IMG/VR virus record: IMGVR_UViG_3300035672_000073
Span: 1 to 38,175 of that record
Origin: a virus
DNA length: 38,175 nucleotides
Direction: 5' to 3' (one strand)
Positions 28,131 to 37,582 of this stretch are shown piece after piece. The translations under genes and the position numbers were made by a program. Position 1 is the first letter of the stretch; each line of letters starts with the position of its first letter. The notes under the pieces are model-generated. The model saw only the letters and a program-made list of their open reading frames with translations, was not told where the DNA came from and searched no databases.

Positions 28131-29276
28131 TTACGATTTACGCAGTTTCTCGACAGCTTTTTGACAGCGCGAAAGGCTAATGTCAATTCCAACAGCAGGT
28201 CTGCCGAGTTGCTGTGCGGCTACCAACGTGTTGCCGTTTCCCATGAATGGATCGAGGATCATTCCGTCAGTAAGCTGGAGCAGCCATCGCACTTCCTCCA
28301 GCGGACGTTCCATATTTGTGTCAGCAGCCAGCGAGGGATACGAGTGTCGCCAACTGGTGTTCACGCCATCTTTGAAGATGAATCCCGGCTTGGGATTGGT
28401 GAGGATGACACTCTTGCCTGAGTGGATGCGTTCGAGTCCGTAATCCTTGATGAACGCCAAGCTGTGAGGATCGCGAACCGTGAACGGTGGATCGAGGAAC
28501 AGCGTCTGGAAATAATGCTTGGCAAACTGAGTGACCACGTCTGGCGTGTGTCCGTTGTAGATCACAATGTCGCTGTGGTGATAGAACGGCGTGAGGCTAA
28601 GCGGGAGGTTTGCGGTGTCGTGTGGTTGTCTCTCACCAGCTTTCCTCGTCTGCCAGTCAAGATGAGCGACACGCATTTGCTGAGGAGTGAGTTCACAGTA
28701 GGCGATGATGTCGTTGCCTTCGCGTGGACCTTCGACCACTCCTGGGTGCGGCTGAAGCGTGGCGTGATAGCGCGTGTCAGGATGCGGCGGGATGTCGTTC
28801 GCCTGCATCACTTTTCCTATCCACGAGTCACTGCACCATTCGTTGGGAAGCTTTGGCAGTTCGGCGCTGGCGAGTAGCTTGACAGCCTTGGCTGAGAGCC
28901 AACAGGAGAAACCGCGGATGTAGGGAATTGGAATCAGGTGGCCGATAGCTCGGTGCATTCCGGTGTAATCGTATTGCTCGAAGCCGGAAGCGAGTGCTCG
29001 CTCTGGTTGAATGTACGTGTCTGCGTCGATCTGAAGGACGTAATCGTAACCGTGCTGGATGGCGTACTGGCAGGTGGCCTGAATCTTGATGGCCAGGTTC
29101 CAATAATCATCCGGAACGTCGAGGCTCACTTCGTCAGGCTGTTCATCCTTCAGGATCGGTCTGCCGTAGAAGAACCTAAGGTCGGCTCCGTGTAGGTCGC
29201 GTCCCCACGTCTCGCGAATAACCGCAGCACGATGTCTGTCGCGATGGCACGACTTGACGGCGAATAGGATTCGCAC
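28131..29276 (-). CDS. Glycosyltransferase (GT31-like) fused to DNA amino-methyltransferase
   Basis: A 381-residue two-domain protein, GTG start after AAGGAT. Residues 1 to about 215 resemble beta-1,3-glycosyltransferases of family GT31: R-x-x-x-I-R-x-TWG (HRAAVIRETWG, residues 15-25), DDYWNLAIKI (56-65), the DxD metal/nucleotide-sugar motif in LQIDADTYI (D84, D86), and a CSDSWIG segment (148-154) in place of the ED.Y.G motif. Residues about 233-381 form a compact DNA methyltransferase with motif IV first (FLDPPF, 260-265) and motif I last (LDPFMGNGNTLVAA, 341-354, then VGIDI), the order of beta-class N6-adenine/N4-cytosine enzymes. No target recognition domain is evident. It may modify phage DNA with methyl and sugar groups; the sugar acceptor is unknown. 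Confidence 0.8.
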   Translation of the reverse strand: MRILFAVKSCHRDRHRAAVIRETWGRDLHGADLRFFYGRPILKDEQPDEVSLDVPDDYWNLAIKIQATCQYAIQHGYDYVLQIDADTYIQPERALASGFEQYDYTGMHRAIGHLIPIPYIRGFSCWLSAKAVKLLASAELPKLPNEWCSDSWIGKVMQANDIPPHPDTRYHATLQPHPGVVEGPREGNDIIAYCELTPQQMRVAHLDWQTRKAGERQPHDTANLPLSLTPFYHHSDIVIYNGHTPDVVTQFAKHYFQTLFLDPPFTVRDPHSLAFIKDYGLERIHSGKSVILTNPKPGFIFKDGVNTSWRHSYPSLAADTNMERPLEEVRWLLQLTDGMILDPFMGNGNTLVAAQQLGRPAVGIDISLSRCQKAVEKLRKS

Positions 29277-31829: not shown

Positions 31830-32720
31830 TTAGCTGTTTGCCAGCCTGAAATTGGCAAGCAGTCGGGGATGTGTCAGCACCTTCTTGAAATAGCACACGA
31901 CGGAATATTTCGTCCCTGTCACTGGACTCAGGTTGGCGTGCCAATCGCGAGGGGTTGAGGCGATCAAGAGATCACCAGGCTTCACAGCGATTTGTACTCC
32001 GAACTCCACGAAGCAGAAGGGTCCGCCGTCGTAGGGATCGTTGGGATCATCTATGGAAGTCATACAGGCAAAGTTGTTGCCGTTCCGCCCATCCGTGTGT
32101 GCGGCGCTGGGAGCACTCTTGAGAATTGCTACGCTGGAGAACGGCGTGAAGCCAGCCAGCCGGAACTCCTCGGGAGTGCCAACATTCTGCTCCATAAATT
32201 TGCGAGGCAGGCGATTGGCGAACACACCGGACATTTCAGTGAGGAGCGAGAAGCACTGCTGGAACGCGCCGATTTGCTTTTTAGTAGGTGTGAACTGGTC
32301 GATCGTGTGACGAGCATAGAAACCGTAGTTCAGTTCTCCGGCTATTTTTGACCCATTGAAAGCGTTGGCTCCCTTCAACTCCTTGCGATTCGACTTGTCT
32401 GTGCTCTTGAACTTCATGGCCTTGAGACCGTTCAAAGCCTCGTCCTGTACGCCCTGAGGTATGACGCCCTTCAGGAACAGGAACATGAGTGAGCCGTCGG
32501 GATGGAAGCCAATCGCATTCGTCGTGAATTTGTGTGGTGGGTTGTAGCCGCGATCAACATCACGAACGTATTGGCCTTTCCAGCTTTTCACGATCTTCGC
32601 AGCGCGATACGCCCCATGCAGGCGACCGCTGTAGAGCTTGAGCTTCCATTTCTTGATCATCCATCGCCAGGACATCCGCGTCTGCACGGTTGTGACGTGG
32701 GGTACTAGAGCTTTAGCCAT
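31830..32720 (-). CDS. 2-oxoglutarate/Fe(II) oxygenase, TET/JBP-like (candidate DNA base hydroxylase)
   Basis: 296 residues from ATG 32720, ten bases after GGAG. The C-terminal half is a double-stranded beta-helix oxygenase. H208-x-D210 lies in SAAHTDGRNGNNFACM, then GGPFCFVEFGVQIAVKPGDL (residues 232-251), and the distal iron ligand H261 in DWHANLSP. K271 in TKYSVVCYFKK stands exactly ten residues after H261, where the TET/JBP enzyme NgTet1 has the 2-oxoglutarate-binding Arg. The HxDxxN, GG.fcf.E.G, PGDLLI and WHaN...KySVVcY pattern is closer to TET/JBP and fungal TET-like oxygenases than to AlkB. The basic N terminus (residues 20-60) may bind DNA. Expected activity: hydroxylation of thymine or 5-methylcytosine. 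A protein or small-molecule substrate is not excluded. Confidence 0.72.
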   Translation of the reverse strand: MAKALVPHVTTVQTRMSWRWMIKKWKLKLYSGRLHGAYRAAKIVKSWKGQYVRDVDRGYNPPHKFTTNAIGFHPDGSLMFLFLKGVIPQGVQDEALNGLKAMKFKSTDKSNRKELKGANAFNGSKIAGELNYGFYARHTIDQFTPTKKQIGAFQQCFSLLTEMSGVFANRLPRKFMEQNVGTPEEFRLAGFTPFSSVAILKSAPSAAHTDGRNGNNFACMTSIDDPNDPYDGGPFCFVEFGVQIAVKPGDLLIASTPRDWHANLSPVTGTKYSVVCYFKKVLTHPRLLANFRLANS

Positions 32721-32880
32721 GGGCTGCAAGCTCCATTTCTCTAGTGATCACTTGGATTTTGCGGTCGCATTGTTGGCAGACGAGCCACCCACCAGCCGCT
32801 GTCACGACCAGTTTGTGAGTGGAGCAAGGGCAGCCATAACGCACGCTAGGATCGTAGCCTTCGGGAGTTTCGTCATCCAT
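32713..32880 (-). CDS. Small zinc-ribbon protein overlapping the oxygenase gene (55 aa)
   Basis: A 55-residue ORF from ATG 32880 to TAA at 32713-32715. It has two zinc-type knuckles: YGCPCSTHK (residues 15-23) and LVCQQCDRK (33-41), separated by a strand (LVVTAAGGW). Its stop overlaps the oxygenase ATG by eight bases in another frame, so the two should be translated together. A GGAG sits immediately before the start codon, which is closer than ideal. The gene pairing suggests that it works with the oxygenase, perhaps as a DNA-binding or substrate-targeting subunit. Confidence 0.55.
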   Translation of the reverse strand: MDDETPEGYDPSVRYGCPCSTHKLVVTAAGGWLVCQQCDRKIQVITREMELAAHG

Positions 32881-33266: not shown

Positions 33267-33887
33267 CTAGTGAGTGCCCTTCACAATCTTCTGCAATTGC
33301 GAGGCGTACTCGATCATCAGTTTGTTGACGCCCAGCATCTCCCCAACCAGTTCGGCATACTGCGGGAACGTCTTCTGATGCTCCTGCGGAGTTGCCGTCT
33401 TCAGTGCATCTTCGGAGTTGCGCCACCAGTTGCGATATCGAGCCTGCCACTTTGTAAGGTGAGGTCGGAGGCCTAGGTTAAGACTTTCGGTAGCGATTTT
33501 CACAATCTGCTGAGTGCTCTTGTCTCGCCTGATGCACTTACCTGGAATGTCTCCGATGAGTTGTCGTGTCCGCTGAAACAGTGCATACCATGAGTCGTAG
33601 ACTTCTACGATCACATCATCTTCCGGATCGAACGGGATGGCGGCTCTGCGCGTGATGAGCTCCGTCCAAATCTGATGTGCTATTTGAATGTCCTCCCAAG
33701 TCGGACATATCTTCATGCAGCCGATGCCGCCCAGATTGATGTTCACTTCCACTACGTGATGCTGTTTGTTCACTCGCTGCCATATCACGAAGCCAATTAT
33801 GAGCAGAAGCACTAATGCCCAGACCCAGGGCGAGACCTCGATCCCGAGCAAGTACTTCTCCGTGATGTACAACCGAAAAAGGGTCAT
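33267..33887 (-). CDS. Membrane-anchored partner of the TIR-like protein
   Basis: 206 residues from ATG 33887, overlapping the TIR gene stop (ATGA). The open frame above belongs to the TIR gene in another frame. One transmembrane helix is at residues 19-36 (SPWVWALVLLLIIGFVIW). The cytoplasmic part is helical with YDSWYALFQRTRQLIGDIPG, STQQIVKIATESLNLGLRPH, LTKWQARYRNWW and QKTFPQYAELVGEMLGVNKL. The RPHLTKWQARYR segment and FPQY.ELV...L.VN helix recall a family that I have seen next to TIR-like genes, but I cannot name it. As the membrane partner of a TIR protein it may be the effector of an abortive-infection system. Confidence 0.65.
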   Translation of the reverse strand: MTLFRLYITEKYLLGIEVSPWVWALVLLLIIGFVIWQRVNKQHHVVEVNINLGGIGCMKICPTWEDIQIAHQIWTELITRRAAIPFDPEDDVIVEVYDSWYALFQRTRQLIGDIPGKCIRRDKSTQQIVKIATESLNLGLRPHLTKWQARYRNWWRNSEDALKTATPQEHQKTFPQYAELVGEMLGVNKLMIEYASQLQKIVKGTH

Positions 33888-34498
33888 ACCCCGTGGTTGA
33901 CTCCACAGGCATAGCAGAATCCGTTGTTCTTCATCATTTCGTTCGGATTGCTTATGTCGTCTACGAGATTCTTGTTCGTCCGGCTGTCGAAAGCAGTCTC
34001 GATGCACTGGCGCATCGCTGGTTCGTTATCAGGCATGAACCAATAGCGAGCATACGAAGTGTTGTCGAGATACCTATAGTTCGGAGCGAATCGCGTAGGT
34101 AGTTGCGGGTAAAGCCGACCGGGACGATTGTGCGCCGATGGAAGCAGGAACGCCACCAGTCCGTTCGGGGTACCAGTCCCACATTGGAGAGAAGCCTTGA
34201 TCTCCCAATCGATGAATCTGCGCGAGTGCGCGCAGTTGCCCATCAGAACGACTGTAACACTCGAATCGCCGAGGTACTCGGAGCGAATGCGAGACATAAC
34301 GTAGGCAGCATTATCACTGTTCACTATATCGTTCGTGAACGACATGCCCAGTGCGCGATGGGTGAACACGTTGCGCCAGTTCCAGACAAACCACTCTGCT
34401 TCCTGCTGGTCCGAGTGGCAGTAGGAAATAAACACTTTCCGCTTTATAGGTGCAGGTGGTGGTGGAGGAGGAATGATATAGCGAGACCAATCCGACAT
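33884..34498 (-). CDS. TIR-like domain protein (MTH538/ThsB type)
   Basis: A 204-residue protein. A proline run (PPPPPPAP, residues 10-17) leads to the TIR-like core: KVFISYCHSDQ (21-31), SDNAAYVMSRIRSEYLGDSS (61-80), VTVVLMGNCAHSRRFIDWEI (81-100) and VAFLLPSAHNRPGRLYP. The strand-loop pattern and the RRFIDWE motif match the DUF1863/MTH538 TIR-like family, which includes the Thoeris ThsB signal producers. The C-terminal third is unassigned and has FCYACGVNH at the end. It is coupled by an ATGA overlap to a membrane protein gene. The inferred role is a sensor or nucleotide-signal enzyme against other phages. Confidence 0.75.
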   Translation of the reverse strand: MSDWSRYIIPPPPPPAPIKRKVFISYCHSDQQEAEWFVWNWRNVFTHRALGMSFTNDIVNSDNAAYVMSRIRSEYLGDSSVTVVLMGNCAHSRRFIDWEIKASLQCGTGTPNGLVAFLLPSAHNRPGRLYPQLPTRFAPNYRYLDNTSYARYWFMPDNEPAMRQCIETAFDSRTNKNLVDDISNPNEMMKNNGFCYACGVNHGV

Positions 34499-34829: not shown

Positions 34830-37160
34830 CTAGGAAGACTTCTTCGACTCCCTGCTGACCCGAACGGAAGGTTGGGCTGTCATTTTCTCGGGCAGTCCAA
34901 TCGCCAGCGAACCTGTCAATTGCAGTTCAAGCTGTTTGCCTTCCACCAATTTCCAGCGACCTTCCCCAATATGCTCGGCAACTTTTTTCAGGACACTGAG
35001 GATGGTTTGGTGCTTGGGCGTGATCCCATTCTTCAGCAGGGGCATGATATTTAAAACTACGTCGTCGAAACGGGGATGTACGTCCTGGCGCTGCATTTGG
35101 CGCATGTAGGAGAGCAAGTAATACTTGATGCGAACCTCAACTGGAATCTGCGACTTGAATTTCGTGTTTTTCCTAAGTTGGTACGCCTGCTTCTTTTCGT
35201 TGTAATCGAAGTTGTCCTTCAGCAGCGAAGGAATATTCTGGTGCTCCTTGCTCAATTCGTGAAGAAATCCGAGCTCCATTCCACGTACAATAAGCTCGTT
35301 GTAAATTTCTTCAAGAGTCGCGCCTTGTTTCATGGCAATGACGGCTTCGATGGTCTGCATAATGAGGTGCGAGATTTCCCCACCAAGCTGAACTTTCATG
35401 AGAGCCTGAGGATTACGTACCTTGCGGAAATTGATGATAAGCTGCCCGTGCAGCACCGTGAACGGGTTCTGCCTTTTCTTGAACGTAGTTTGACCGACTG
35501 TTTGGGTCACGCTGCCCATGTATTCAAATCCGGCTCGCAGCGCGGTCTCGACAATGAGGTGCCAGTACGCCGGATCCTTGTGTTGGAACACGAAGCTCAT
35601 CCACCTGTCGAACTTGAGCACTCGATACATCTCGTGTATGGATTCCGCTATTAGCCTTGTGTAATCTTCCTTCGTTCGATTGTGCCTTCCACCTTCGATA
35701 GCTTCCTGCTCGTAATCCTCCTCCGTGACGGGTAAGTCAAGCCAGGCGTTCCACATTACTGATAAGTCGAGATATGCGATTTTGGCACCATAAGGTGGAT
35801 CGGTATAAATGTAGTCCACGCTTTCAGCGGGAATTTCATGCAAGTCGGTAGCAGTCCCTTTTTTGATCTCAGCATTCTTGACTGTCTCCTTATTGATGAT
35901 CCCACTCATTTCTTTTTTTGCTGCGACTAGTTTCTTAATCTTGATATCGAAGGTCTCAAAGACATCCAGTTCCACCGGAGCAGGTGCAATCCTGTAGCGG
36001 TAATAGCGAAAGGCAGCACTGTCGCCTGCATTCTCACCTCGCGAAGTGGACGGGTGGTAAGTCCGATTGATTTTTGTGATTGTGCTGGAAAAGGCGAGAA
36101 GGAAACTATCTCGCAGGTTCTCGTCCTTGATGCGTAAGATCAAATGCTTCAGCAGTCCAAGCTCAGCGAGTTGCGATCGGGTGAAGAGTTTCTCGACTGA
36201 ATCGACGTCGGCGTCTCTTGACAGAGGAATGTCCTTTGGGTGCCCATACTGTTCGATTGTCGTTTCCATCTCCTCGGGAGTCCGCGGACGACGCTGAGCA
36301 AACGCGGTACGAAGTTTTTCCACAATTTCCAACATCGCCTGGGGATCGACTGGCGCTACAAGACCCTTTAGGATGAAAGGCGACATAGGATTAAGGTCAA
36401 TGTGGATTGCTCTTCTTCCGAGCATCAAAGCTTCGAGTGCCGTCACACCATAACCACCGAAAGGGTCGAGCACCAAATCTCCCGGTTCGGTGAAATTCTT
36501 AATGTAAGCTTGCACGAGGTCATATGCCTGACGGGTGAAATAACCATGTACGCCAAAGTGACGTTTCGCTCCCTGCTTCCGAGTCTTCAGGGTGAGCAGC
36601 GGTTTGGCAGCAGCGTGGTCGAAGGTGTCAGCCGGAAACAACGGTTTTGATGTTGACGTTTCTGGAGAAAATACCTCAGGCGAGAGTAGGTACTGCAACT
36701 GTGCCCAGTGCTTCTTTATTTCCGAAACATGGAAGTGGAGCACCGGCTCGTTGGAGTCAATCGCAAAGATTGCGAATTCTTTACCATTACACAGTGCGTA
36801 GTAGCGAACTTGAACATCCGGATGAATGGCATAGAAGAAAGCCTGTTCACGGTGTTCACCTGATGTGACCTCTTCTTCTGGGTCTTTGGCATCGAGCACC
36901 CATGCAGGCTTACTACCGACTGTTAGTAGGTAATCAGGATAGTTCGTGATATGCCTCTCTCCCGAACCTGTCTTCACGAATGGATGTCTCAATTTCTTAC
37001 TTCGGATAATGCGATTCTTGGCCGAGACTGAGTAGCCAAGTGCATTCAGGATCGGCTTGATAATCTCTTCGCGGACAGAGTCCTCCTTGAAATCGGGCGA
37101 ATTGAGTTCTCCGAAATCAAATTCATCAAACAGGCATAGGTTGTGGTCGTCGCTTGGCAT
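34830..37160 (-). CDS. Single-chain restriction-modification-like protein: PD-(D/E)xK nuclease fused to DNA methyltransferase
   Basis: 776 residues from ATG 37160 (weak GGAA). An upstream TTG at 37295 and ATG at 37256 are in frame but lead to unlikely sequence. Residues about 24-150 resemble the HsdR N-terminal nuclease: REEIIKPILNALGYS, then P75-D76 (NYPDYLLTV), D90-x-K92 (WVLDAKDP), and Q106-x-x-x-Y110 (REQAFFYAI). Residues about 200-620 form an amino-methyltransferase with motif I DPFGGYGVTALEALMLGRR (232-250) and motif IV YTDPPYGAK (452-460), about 220 residues apart. The C-terminal 160 or so residues are helical and could recognise the target. The order resembles type IIG-like enzymes, but it is not matched to a named system. 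It would restrict competing phages or host DNA. Confidence 0.75.
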   Translation of the reverse strand: MPSDDHNLCLFDEFDFGELNSPDFKEDSVREEIIKPILNALGYSVSAKNRIIRSKKLRHPFVKTGSGERHITNYPDYLLTVGSKPAWVLDAKDPEEEVTSGEHREQAFFYAIHPDVQVRYYALCNGKEFAIFAIDSNEPVLHFHVSEIKKHWAQLQYLLSPEVFSPETSTSKPLFPADTFDHAAAKPLLTLKTRKQGAKRHFGVHGYFTRQAYDLVQAYIKNFTEPGDLVLDPFGGYGVTALEALMLGRRAIHIDLNPMSPFILKGLVAPVDPQAMLEIVEKLRTAFAQRRPRTPEEMETTIEQYGHPKDIPLSRDADVDSVEKLFTRSQLAELGLLKHLILRIKDENLRDSFLLAFSSTITKINRTYHPSTSRGENAGDSAAFRYYRYRIAPAPVELDVFETFDIKIKKLVAAKKEMSGIINKETVKNAEIKKGTATDLHEIPAESVDYIYTDPPYGAKIAYLDLSVMWNAWLDLPVTEEDYEQEAIEGGRHNRTKEDYTRLIAESIHEMYRVLKFDRWMSFVFQHKDPAYWHLIVETALRAGFEYMGSVTQTVGQTTFKKRQNPFTVLHGQLIINFRKVRNPQALMKVQLGGEISHLIMQTIEAVIAMKQGATLEEIYNELIVRGMELGFLHELSKEHQNIPSLLKDNFDYNEKKQAYQLRKNTKFKSQIPVEVRIKYYLLSYMRQMQRQDVHPRFDDVVLNIMPLLKNGITPKHQTILSVLKKVAEHIGEGRWKLVEGKQLELQLTGSLAIGLPEKMTAQPSVRVSRESKKSS

Positions 37161-37582
37161 TGGCTTCCGTGAAGAAGTGTGGCCTATGTCATCGTAAGTT
37201 GCACCAAAAATGTTGCAATCATAAGTAACGATGTCACTGCACAATAACCCCCACATCTTGGGGGGATAGAGATGGGTACCACAAGGCACGAGCAAAATCT
37301 TATACCGTGTTGTAACCGCAACTGCTCGACAAGCCCTTCCTGAGATGACCGCCGATAACTGGCTTCTGAGTGCGAACAGTCACATTCGCACATGCAAGTG
37401 CCGTTCTTAGCTTTGTTCTGGCCAGCGAACAGAAGCACTCTCTACCTTCCGAATCTGCGGCCTGTTAAGTCGATTGTTCTGACTCATTCGACCTAATACG
37501 AATTCACGTGTCAAAGCCGAAGTTCTTTGCGAGAGTCTCTCCTCGTTGGGCTATGAGTTCACTCAGGATAGGAGAGTTCGAG
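37161..37582. promoter_or_regulatory. Divergent control region with operator-like dyads
   Basis: No gene is supported in these 422 bases between the leftward nuclease-methyltransferase gene and the rightward gene at 37583. GTGCGAA-CAGTCACA-TTCGCAC (37370-37391) is a perfect 7-bp inverted repeat with an 8-base spacer, suitable for a dimeric repressor. GTCGA / TCGAC with 14 bases between (37469-37492) is a weaker second dyad. TAATAC at 37494 is a possible -10 for the rightward gene, without a good -35. Confidence 0.45.

Follow-up and report, generated by a model that had tools for sequence, protein, structure and literature searches.

A phage-borne fusion of an HsdR-like PD-(D/E)XK nuclease domain to a BrxXI-like methyltransferase, a probable single-polypeptide restriction-modification enzyme with a putative exchangeable cassette

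The DNA analysed here is the whole of IMG/VR virus record IMGVR_UViG_3300035672_000073 (38,175 bases, hereafter the window). It encodes a large terminase, a portal, a major head protein, a tape measure protein, a tail fibre and an integrase, and the integrase together with these packaging, head and tail genes identifies it as the genome of a temperate tailed phage; megablast of the window DNA against phages gave no match. On the minus strand, an intact open reading frame at 34830-37160 encodes a 776-residue protein in which a nuclease domain is fused to a methyltransferase. It is the first leftward gene, and the adjoining divergent, rightward ORF begins at 37508. An in-frame TTG upstream, at 37295, is a possible alternative start, but homologues begin within about 10 residues of the ATG at 37160 and their alignments span residues 10-746. 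The motifs listed for this protein in a first-pass annotation are all found at the residues named (P75-D76, D90-A-K92, Q106-A-F-F-Y110, D232-PFGGYG and D454-PPY), and the spacing of about 220 residues that it gave between methyltransferase motifs I and IV is 222 in the window protein. A chance occurrence of these motifs is excluded because they are conserved in 53 full-length proteins.

When 84,980 species genomes were searched, 73 loci encoding a relative were obtained, a lower bound because the search detects close relatives only. At most of these loci the relative could be aligned over residues 10-746 with 43-62% identity. The homologues come from Bacteroidota, Spirochaetota, Elusimicrobiota, Cyanobacteriota, Pseudomonadota, Campylobacterota, Planctomycetota, Ignavibacteriota, Nitrospirota, Acidobacteriota and other phyla, and carriage is patchy: about ten members were found among 395 genomes of the phylum that includes locus L003 (12 hits, one of them methyltransferase-only and one nuclease-only), about ten among 291 cyanobacterial genomes, and one among the 297 genomes sampled around locus L002, namely in the genome at the centre of that sample. 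Cultured carriers include Capnocytophaga oral taxon 338, Chromatium okenii, C. weissei and Dolichospermum. Phyla are interleaved in the tree, and the neighbour of the window protein there, which is moderately supported (93/77), comes from Acidobacteriota (Pyrinomonadaceae). Several homologous genes are frameshifted, mostly on single MAG contigs, and some of these copies may be inactive, though such contigs could carry errors. The family is also present on phages other than that of the window: a single-protein scan of viral contigs found no copy and a profile search found two full ones, while no full-length close relative was found in GenBank phages or PLSDB plasmids.

The N-terminal part of the protein, residues 10-166 (36663-37133; this and all further features of the protein lie on the minus strand), is a PD-(D/E)XK nuclease domain of the kind found in HsdR and type IIG enzymes. 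The acidic residue of its first helix, E26 (37083-37085), is invariant in the 53 full-length proteins; in the P75-D76 motif (36933-36938) the proline is retained in 52 and the aspartate in all 53; the (D/E)xK motif D90-A91-K92 (36885-36893) has Asp in 47 and Glu in six at position 90, followed by invariant Ala and Lys; and Q106 and Y110 of the QxxxY motif (36831-36845) are likewise invariant. Six residues, E26, D76, A91, K92, Q106 and Y110, are thus identical throughout the set, and the nuclease assignment, which the first-pass annotation had made to depend on conservation of such residues in homologues, withstands this comparison. The family HSDR_N (PF04313) is recognised in 40 of 50 homologous N-terminal domains, and the window domain taken alone matches it above the gathering score. 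The model of this domain (pLDDT 92.8) could be superimposed on the HsdR fragment 3h1t with a Z score of 12.6 and an rmsd of 2.9 over 118 residues, and on the type IIG enzymes DrdV (PDB identifier 7lo5, Z 11.4) and BpuSI (PDB identifier 3s1s, Z 11.2); the same three structures are also the top Foldseek matches (E 0.001-0.005). In its N-terminal domain the protein therefore resembles type I HsdR, from which it differs in what follows, since in HsdR the nuclease is succeeded by a helicase motor and here by a methyltransferase on the same chain; no helicase family is present among the Pfam matches of the window protein. Relatives of the nuclease domain also occur outside the fusion. Stand-alone proteins of about 290 residues, 48-51% identical over the nuclease domain and different in their C-terminal half, are encoded on a Nostoc plasmid (L157, 4328-5203) and in a member of Bacteroidota (L192, 1498-2376), and a cyanobacterial genome (L233, 1468-3453) encodes a related nuclease domain fused to a P-loop (STAND-like) ATPase.

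The nuclease is joined to the methyltransferase by a flexible linker at residues 167-190 (36591-36662), which is modelled with pLDDT below 50 at residues 168-178 and which, among relatives, carries lineage-specific insertions and a poly-G frameshift. In a Treponema copy (L060, at about 665) a run of 14 G lies at the linker and the gene is split between the two domains, and a Helicobacter copy (L073) holds 10 G within the gene, in frame; these runs suggest phase variation. Three cyanobacterial copies (L228, L229 and L230) carry proline-rich, repeat-like insertions in the linker, resembling small mobile repeats that have landed there.

In the methyltransferase part of the window protein (METHYLTRANSFERASE), Pfam recognises N6_N4_Mtase around motif I (E 3e-18) and gives no match to N6_Mtase. 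The AdoMet-binding motif I, DPFGGYG, lies at residues 232-238 (36447-36467), and the catalytic motif IV, DPPY, at residues 454-457 (35790-35801) is invariant in the alignment of 50-53 homologues, so that the methyltransferase active site is conserved as well as that of the nuclease. The distance between the two motifs is 219-230 residues in all 44 proteins in which both could be located. The secondary structure of the model places this wide gap in an insert between Rossmann strands 2 and 3, at residues 259-428 (35877-36386), which measures 167-194 residues in each of 50 alignment rows. Residues 585-746 (34923-35408) form a conserved and mostly helical C-terminal domain, for which no family match was found. 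A fold search with the whole model is dominated by the methyltransferase core and carries little information on the other parts.

Profile comparisons place this methyltransferase close to the BREX systems. The best defence model for the window protein is PglXI (E 2.6e-41), which is matched by all 50 homologues, and the methyltransferase profile of the family aligns over 431 columns, with a probability of 99.9% and an E-value of 2e-33, to a BrxXI-like DNA methyltransferase of Halorarius, whose gene, on a haloarchaeal plasmid, belongs to a BREX locus and has BrxA and PglZ genes at its side. When compared by hhalign with MmeI-like type IIG enzymes, the same part gives a probability of 1.7% over only 32 columns. 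By these profile matches the methyltransferase is a relative of BREX type-3 BrxXI (PglXI) and not of the gamma-class NPPY type. According to a 2026 study (PMC12839542), the target recognition domain (TRD) of BREX type-3 BrxXI is an insert of about 250 residues that separates Rossmann strands 2 and 3 and contains a Cys4 zinc motif, and the C-terminal region is helical; the wide gap between motifs I and IV is, in the model, an insert of this kind, of about 170 residues. BrxXI and the BREX-related DUF1156 methyltransferases share with the present family the Rossmann core, the large strand 2-3 insert, which has been described as a TRD in the BREX enzymes, DPPY and a helical C-terminal region. BrxXI differs in that the present family has a nuclease domain, is devoid of the Cys4 zinc site (the insert contains no Cys in the window protein and at most three in any of 50 members, as against four CxxC pairs in the Halorarius relative) and has a shorter insert and C-terminal region. 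The latter spans about 280-300 residues with three HTH-like domains in BrxXI and 152-192 mostly helical residues here, and the C-terminal profile of the family does not match the C-terminus of the Halorarius protein.

The surroundings of the family genes also depart from those of BrxXI, as they do not include BrxC, PglZ or helicase genes. The immediate neighbours across the 73 loci are varied and mostly housekeeping genes (for example, adenylosuccinate synthetase, RuvA, RuvB, signal peptidase and tRNA ligases), and no recurrent partner gene, whether a BREX gene, an ATPase or a helicase, stands beside the homologues. All 20 carrier genomes tested either lack PglZ, the BREX marker, or have it on another contig; in genome G003, a separate methyltransferase relative lies beside a PglZ hit on contig C394 and the family member lies on contig C291. 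Since both the zinc motif and the BREX setting are absent, we do not regard the family as a BrxXI. A separate restriction gene was expected among the tight downstream neighbours, but Pfam and PADLOC assigned the 62 immediate neighbours scanned mostly to housekeeping families, and no restriction gene recurred among them. Of the two other viral copies, one (L155) lies between large terminase and portal genes and the other (L156) adjoins a serine recombinase gene that follows a truncated comM-like ORF, gene names here being read from translations. The varied neighbours and the different settings of the viral copies indicate that the gene behaves as self-contained cargo. Methyltransferase-only relatives are found in another type of locus, with an adjacent AAA ATPase and DUF2357 on a Kurthia plasmid (L158, 2236-7555) and with an adjacent hypothetical protein and DUF2357 on a Thiospirochaeta plasmid (L159, 2182-7341); these are possibly McrBC-like restriction-modification systems.

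On the window phage itself, a ThsB-like TIR gene (33884-34498) lies 331 bp downstream of the fusion gene, with a small opposite-strand ORF between them. The first-pass annotation had joined the two into a defence cluster, and they do lie close together, yet none of the 73 homologue loci has a TIR relative: a phmmer search of the window TIR protein and its neighbour against all ORFs of these loci returned only the window itself. The neighbourhood of the fusion gene and the TIR gene is compatible with a cargo region of the phage rather than a conserved system. The TIR gene is followed on the minus strand by an overlapping ORF (together 33267-34498) whose product is probably membrane-anchored, and the two could form a pair of a TIR protein and a membrane effector, of which the homologue loci have none. 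Farther along the same strand, a Tet/JBP-like 2-oxoglutarate oxygenase gene (31830-32729; PF12851, E 1e-9) may encode an enzyme that hydroxylates thymine or 5-methylcytosine in phage DNA, and a protein encoded at 28131-29276 combines an N-terminal galactosyltransferase/Fringe-like stretch with a C-terminal N6_N4_Mtase stretch; together, these two genes suggest DNA hypermodification.

Even conservation across 50 homologues might be read as the lack of a variable TRD and hence as one specificity shared by the whole family. We dropped this reading, as an MmeI-like control set appeared equally even; because MmeI-like enzymes of known type also look even by an all-pairs measure, such a measure is uninformative on TRDs, and we therefore scanned for stretches that diverge independently of the remainder of the protein. 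In pairs of close relatives, most of the deepest dips in identity are located in the strand 2-3 insert, and the linker is the other frequent site. In four pairs (L012/L024, L019/L029, L019/L028 and L009/L045) the core is 94-97% identical and residues 349-421 are 41-60% identical, and in two others (L028/L029 and L037/L041) the core is 95-96% identical and the same residues 95-99%. When the distance within a sliding segment is rank-correlated with the distance over the rest of the protein, the coefficient shows a single trough, 0.34 at residues 356-415, with values of 0.59-0.87 in segments clear of this stretch. The linker, though equally diverged, tracks the core at 0.77-0.82, as does the insert over its first half, and the C-terminal part tracks it at 0.70-0.86, so that residues 336-425, within the strand 2-3 insert, are the sole uncoupled stretch. 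Applied to 20 MmeI-like enzymes, the same scan reaches its lowest value, 0.14, at residues 656-715 and remains low until about residue 855, in the C-terminal half, where the TRD of these enzymes is expected. As the scan locates the TRD in MmeI-like enzymes, we take residues 349-421 (35898-36116) of the window protein as a probable exchangeable specificity cassette, an assignment that is statistical; the structure model is that of a DNA-free monomer. Clustering of this block shows cassette alleles common to different phyla and to the two other viral copies. The cassette allele of the window phage has its nearest counterparts in Bacteroidota (71% to L003), and the core of the window protein is nearest to cyanobacterial and Acidobacteriota proteins.

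On its domain make-up, the family belongs to the broader type IIC, in which a single chain combines a nuclease with a methyltransferase. It resembles the type IIG and IIC enzymes BpuSI, DrdV and the MmeI family in that one chain unites an amino-methyltransferase with an N-terminal PD-(D/E)XK nuclease like the domain of about 200 residues in type I R subunits, MmeI in its single-gene setting, and MmeI-like enzymes in that a putative specificity region diverges on its own, uncoupled from the remainder. It differs from type IIG in having a BrxXI-like methyltransferase with DPPY instead of a gamma-class one with NPPY, and a probable specificity cassette inside the strand 2-3 insert instead of a C-terminal module; at about 745-776 residues it is also shorter than the MmeI-like control enzymes (about 920-1000 residues). 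Type IIG in the strict sense is described as having a gamma-class (NPPY) methyltransferase and a specificity module that is C-terminal or separate (PMC3874165, PMC4081073); because the first does not apply here and, on the indirect evidence of the uncoupling scan, neither does the second, we do not file the family under type IIG. The earlier view of a single-chain nuclease-methyltransferase on a phage that departs from the standard type IIG layout is thereby upheld. BtgZI, an atypical type IIC enzyme, has been described as a single chain that joins a non-gamma amino-methyltransferase to a PD-(D/E)XK-like domain (PMC4081073). It is likened to the present family by description only and, by the same description, differs in that its methyltransferase comes first and is of alpha class, and in that its nuclease motif is the Q variant. 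A literature search found no paper describing the present architecture; REBASE, which was outside this search, may already list members as putative enzymes.

We consider it probable that the protein is a stand-alone, single-polypeptide, type IIG-like restriction-modification enzyme built on a different methyltransferase chassis. The BrxXI-like DPPY half, probably an N6-adenine methyltransferase, would bind a specific DNA sequence via the strand 2-3 cassette and methylate the site. Where the bound site is unmethylated, the PD-(D/E)XK domain tethered by the flexible linker would cut at or near it, presumably after two enzyme molecules meet, as in type IIG enzymes. With one cassette serving both activities, a swap of the cassette would alter cutting and protection together, and this design would explain why the gene can move as one unit and diversify. 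On a temperate phage, the enzyme could exclude unmethylated competitors from the lysogen and shield the phage's own DNA against host enzymes that share its specificity.

Several other readings of the protein have to be weighed. Many phage methyltransferases mask phage DNA from host restriction, and the window protein could be mainly a protective or regulatory methyltransferase of this sort, with a nuclease domain that binds DNA or is vestigial and does not cleave. The Tet/JBP-like oxygenase and the second methyltransferase-containing protein of the window phage point to an investment in DNA modification that would suit such a role, but we find it unlikely, since the catalytic residues of the nuclease are all invariant across phyla, the three viral copies included, and none of the full-length members in the 73 loci is without the nuclease domain. 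We give still less weight to a modification-dependent or signal-activated nuclease, in which the methyltransferase would sense or mark DNA and the nuclease attack modified or foreign DNA in a type IV or Pgl-like manner. As other families give the HsdR-like domain quite different partners, the nuclease could respond to something other than methylation state, and its close relatives do occur alone or with a P-loop/STAND-like ATPase; the methyltransferase, moreover, is kin to BREX type 3, in which restriction does not follow a simple type II scheme. Such a system is nevertheless improbable here, as the copies have no recurrent ATPase or helicase gene nearby and the pattern of cassette diversification is that of type IIG enzymes, as would suit an enzyme that tells self from non-self by sequence-specific methylation. 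A methyltransferase that has diverged to another substrate, RNA, while carrying a nuclease domain is very improbable: the nearest solved folds of its core are the tRNA methyltransferases Trm11/TrmN/Trm14 (VIA-align Z 17.4-18.8) and there is a UPF0020 match, but this likeness is that of a Rossmann core common to the whole superfamily, its sequence places it among DNA methyltransferases (N6_N4_Mtase E 3e-18, CcrM, RsrI and PglXI), the N-terminal domain is of the DNA restriction kind, and THUMP is absent among the Pfam matches reported.

Within the preferred reading of a stand-alone restriction-modification enzyme, a bolder proposal, for which we see slightly weaker grounds than for doubting it, is that the family constitutes a separate class in which a type I/IIG nuclease is carried on a BREX type-3-like chassis. 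Exchange of a cassette of about 70 residues would then re-target cutting and methylation at once, cassettes would be traded across phyla and phages, and the class would link BREX methyltransferases with type IIG. The cassette assignment predicts that carriers of the same cassette allele share a methylated motif and that carriers of different alleles do not, and existing methylomes would suffice for this comparison. Textbook single-chain restriction-modification enzymes combine a gamma-class methyltransferase with a C-terminal specificity module. If the interpretation is correct, a widespread family on another chassis, with a compact cassette that is exchanged in nature, would supply new re-targetable restriction enzymes and methyltransferases, would show a connection between BREX-type methyltransferases and restriction enzymes, and would provide phages with a weapon and a shield in one gene.
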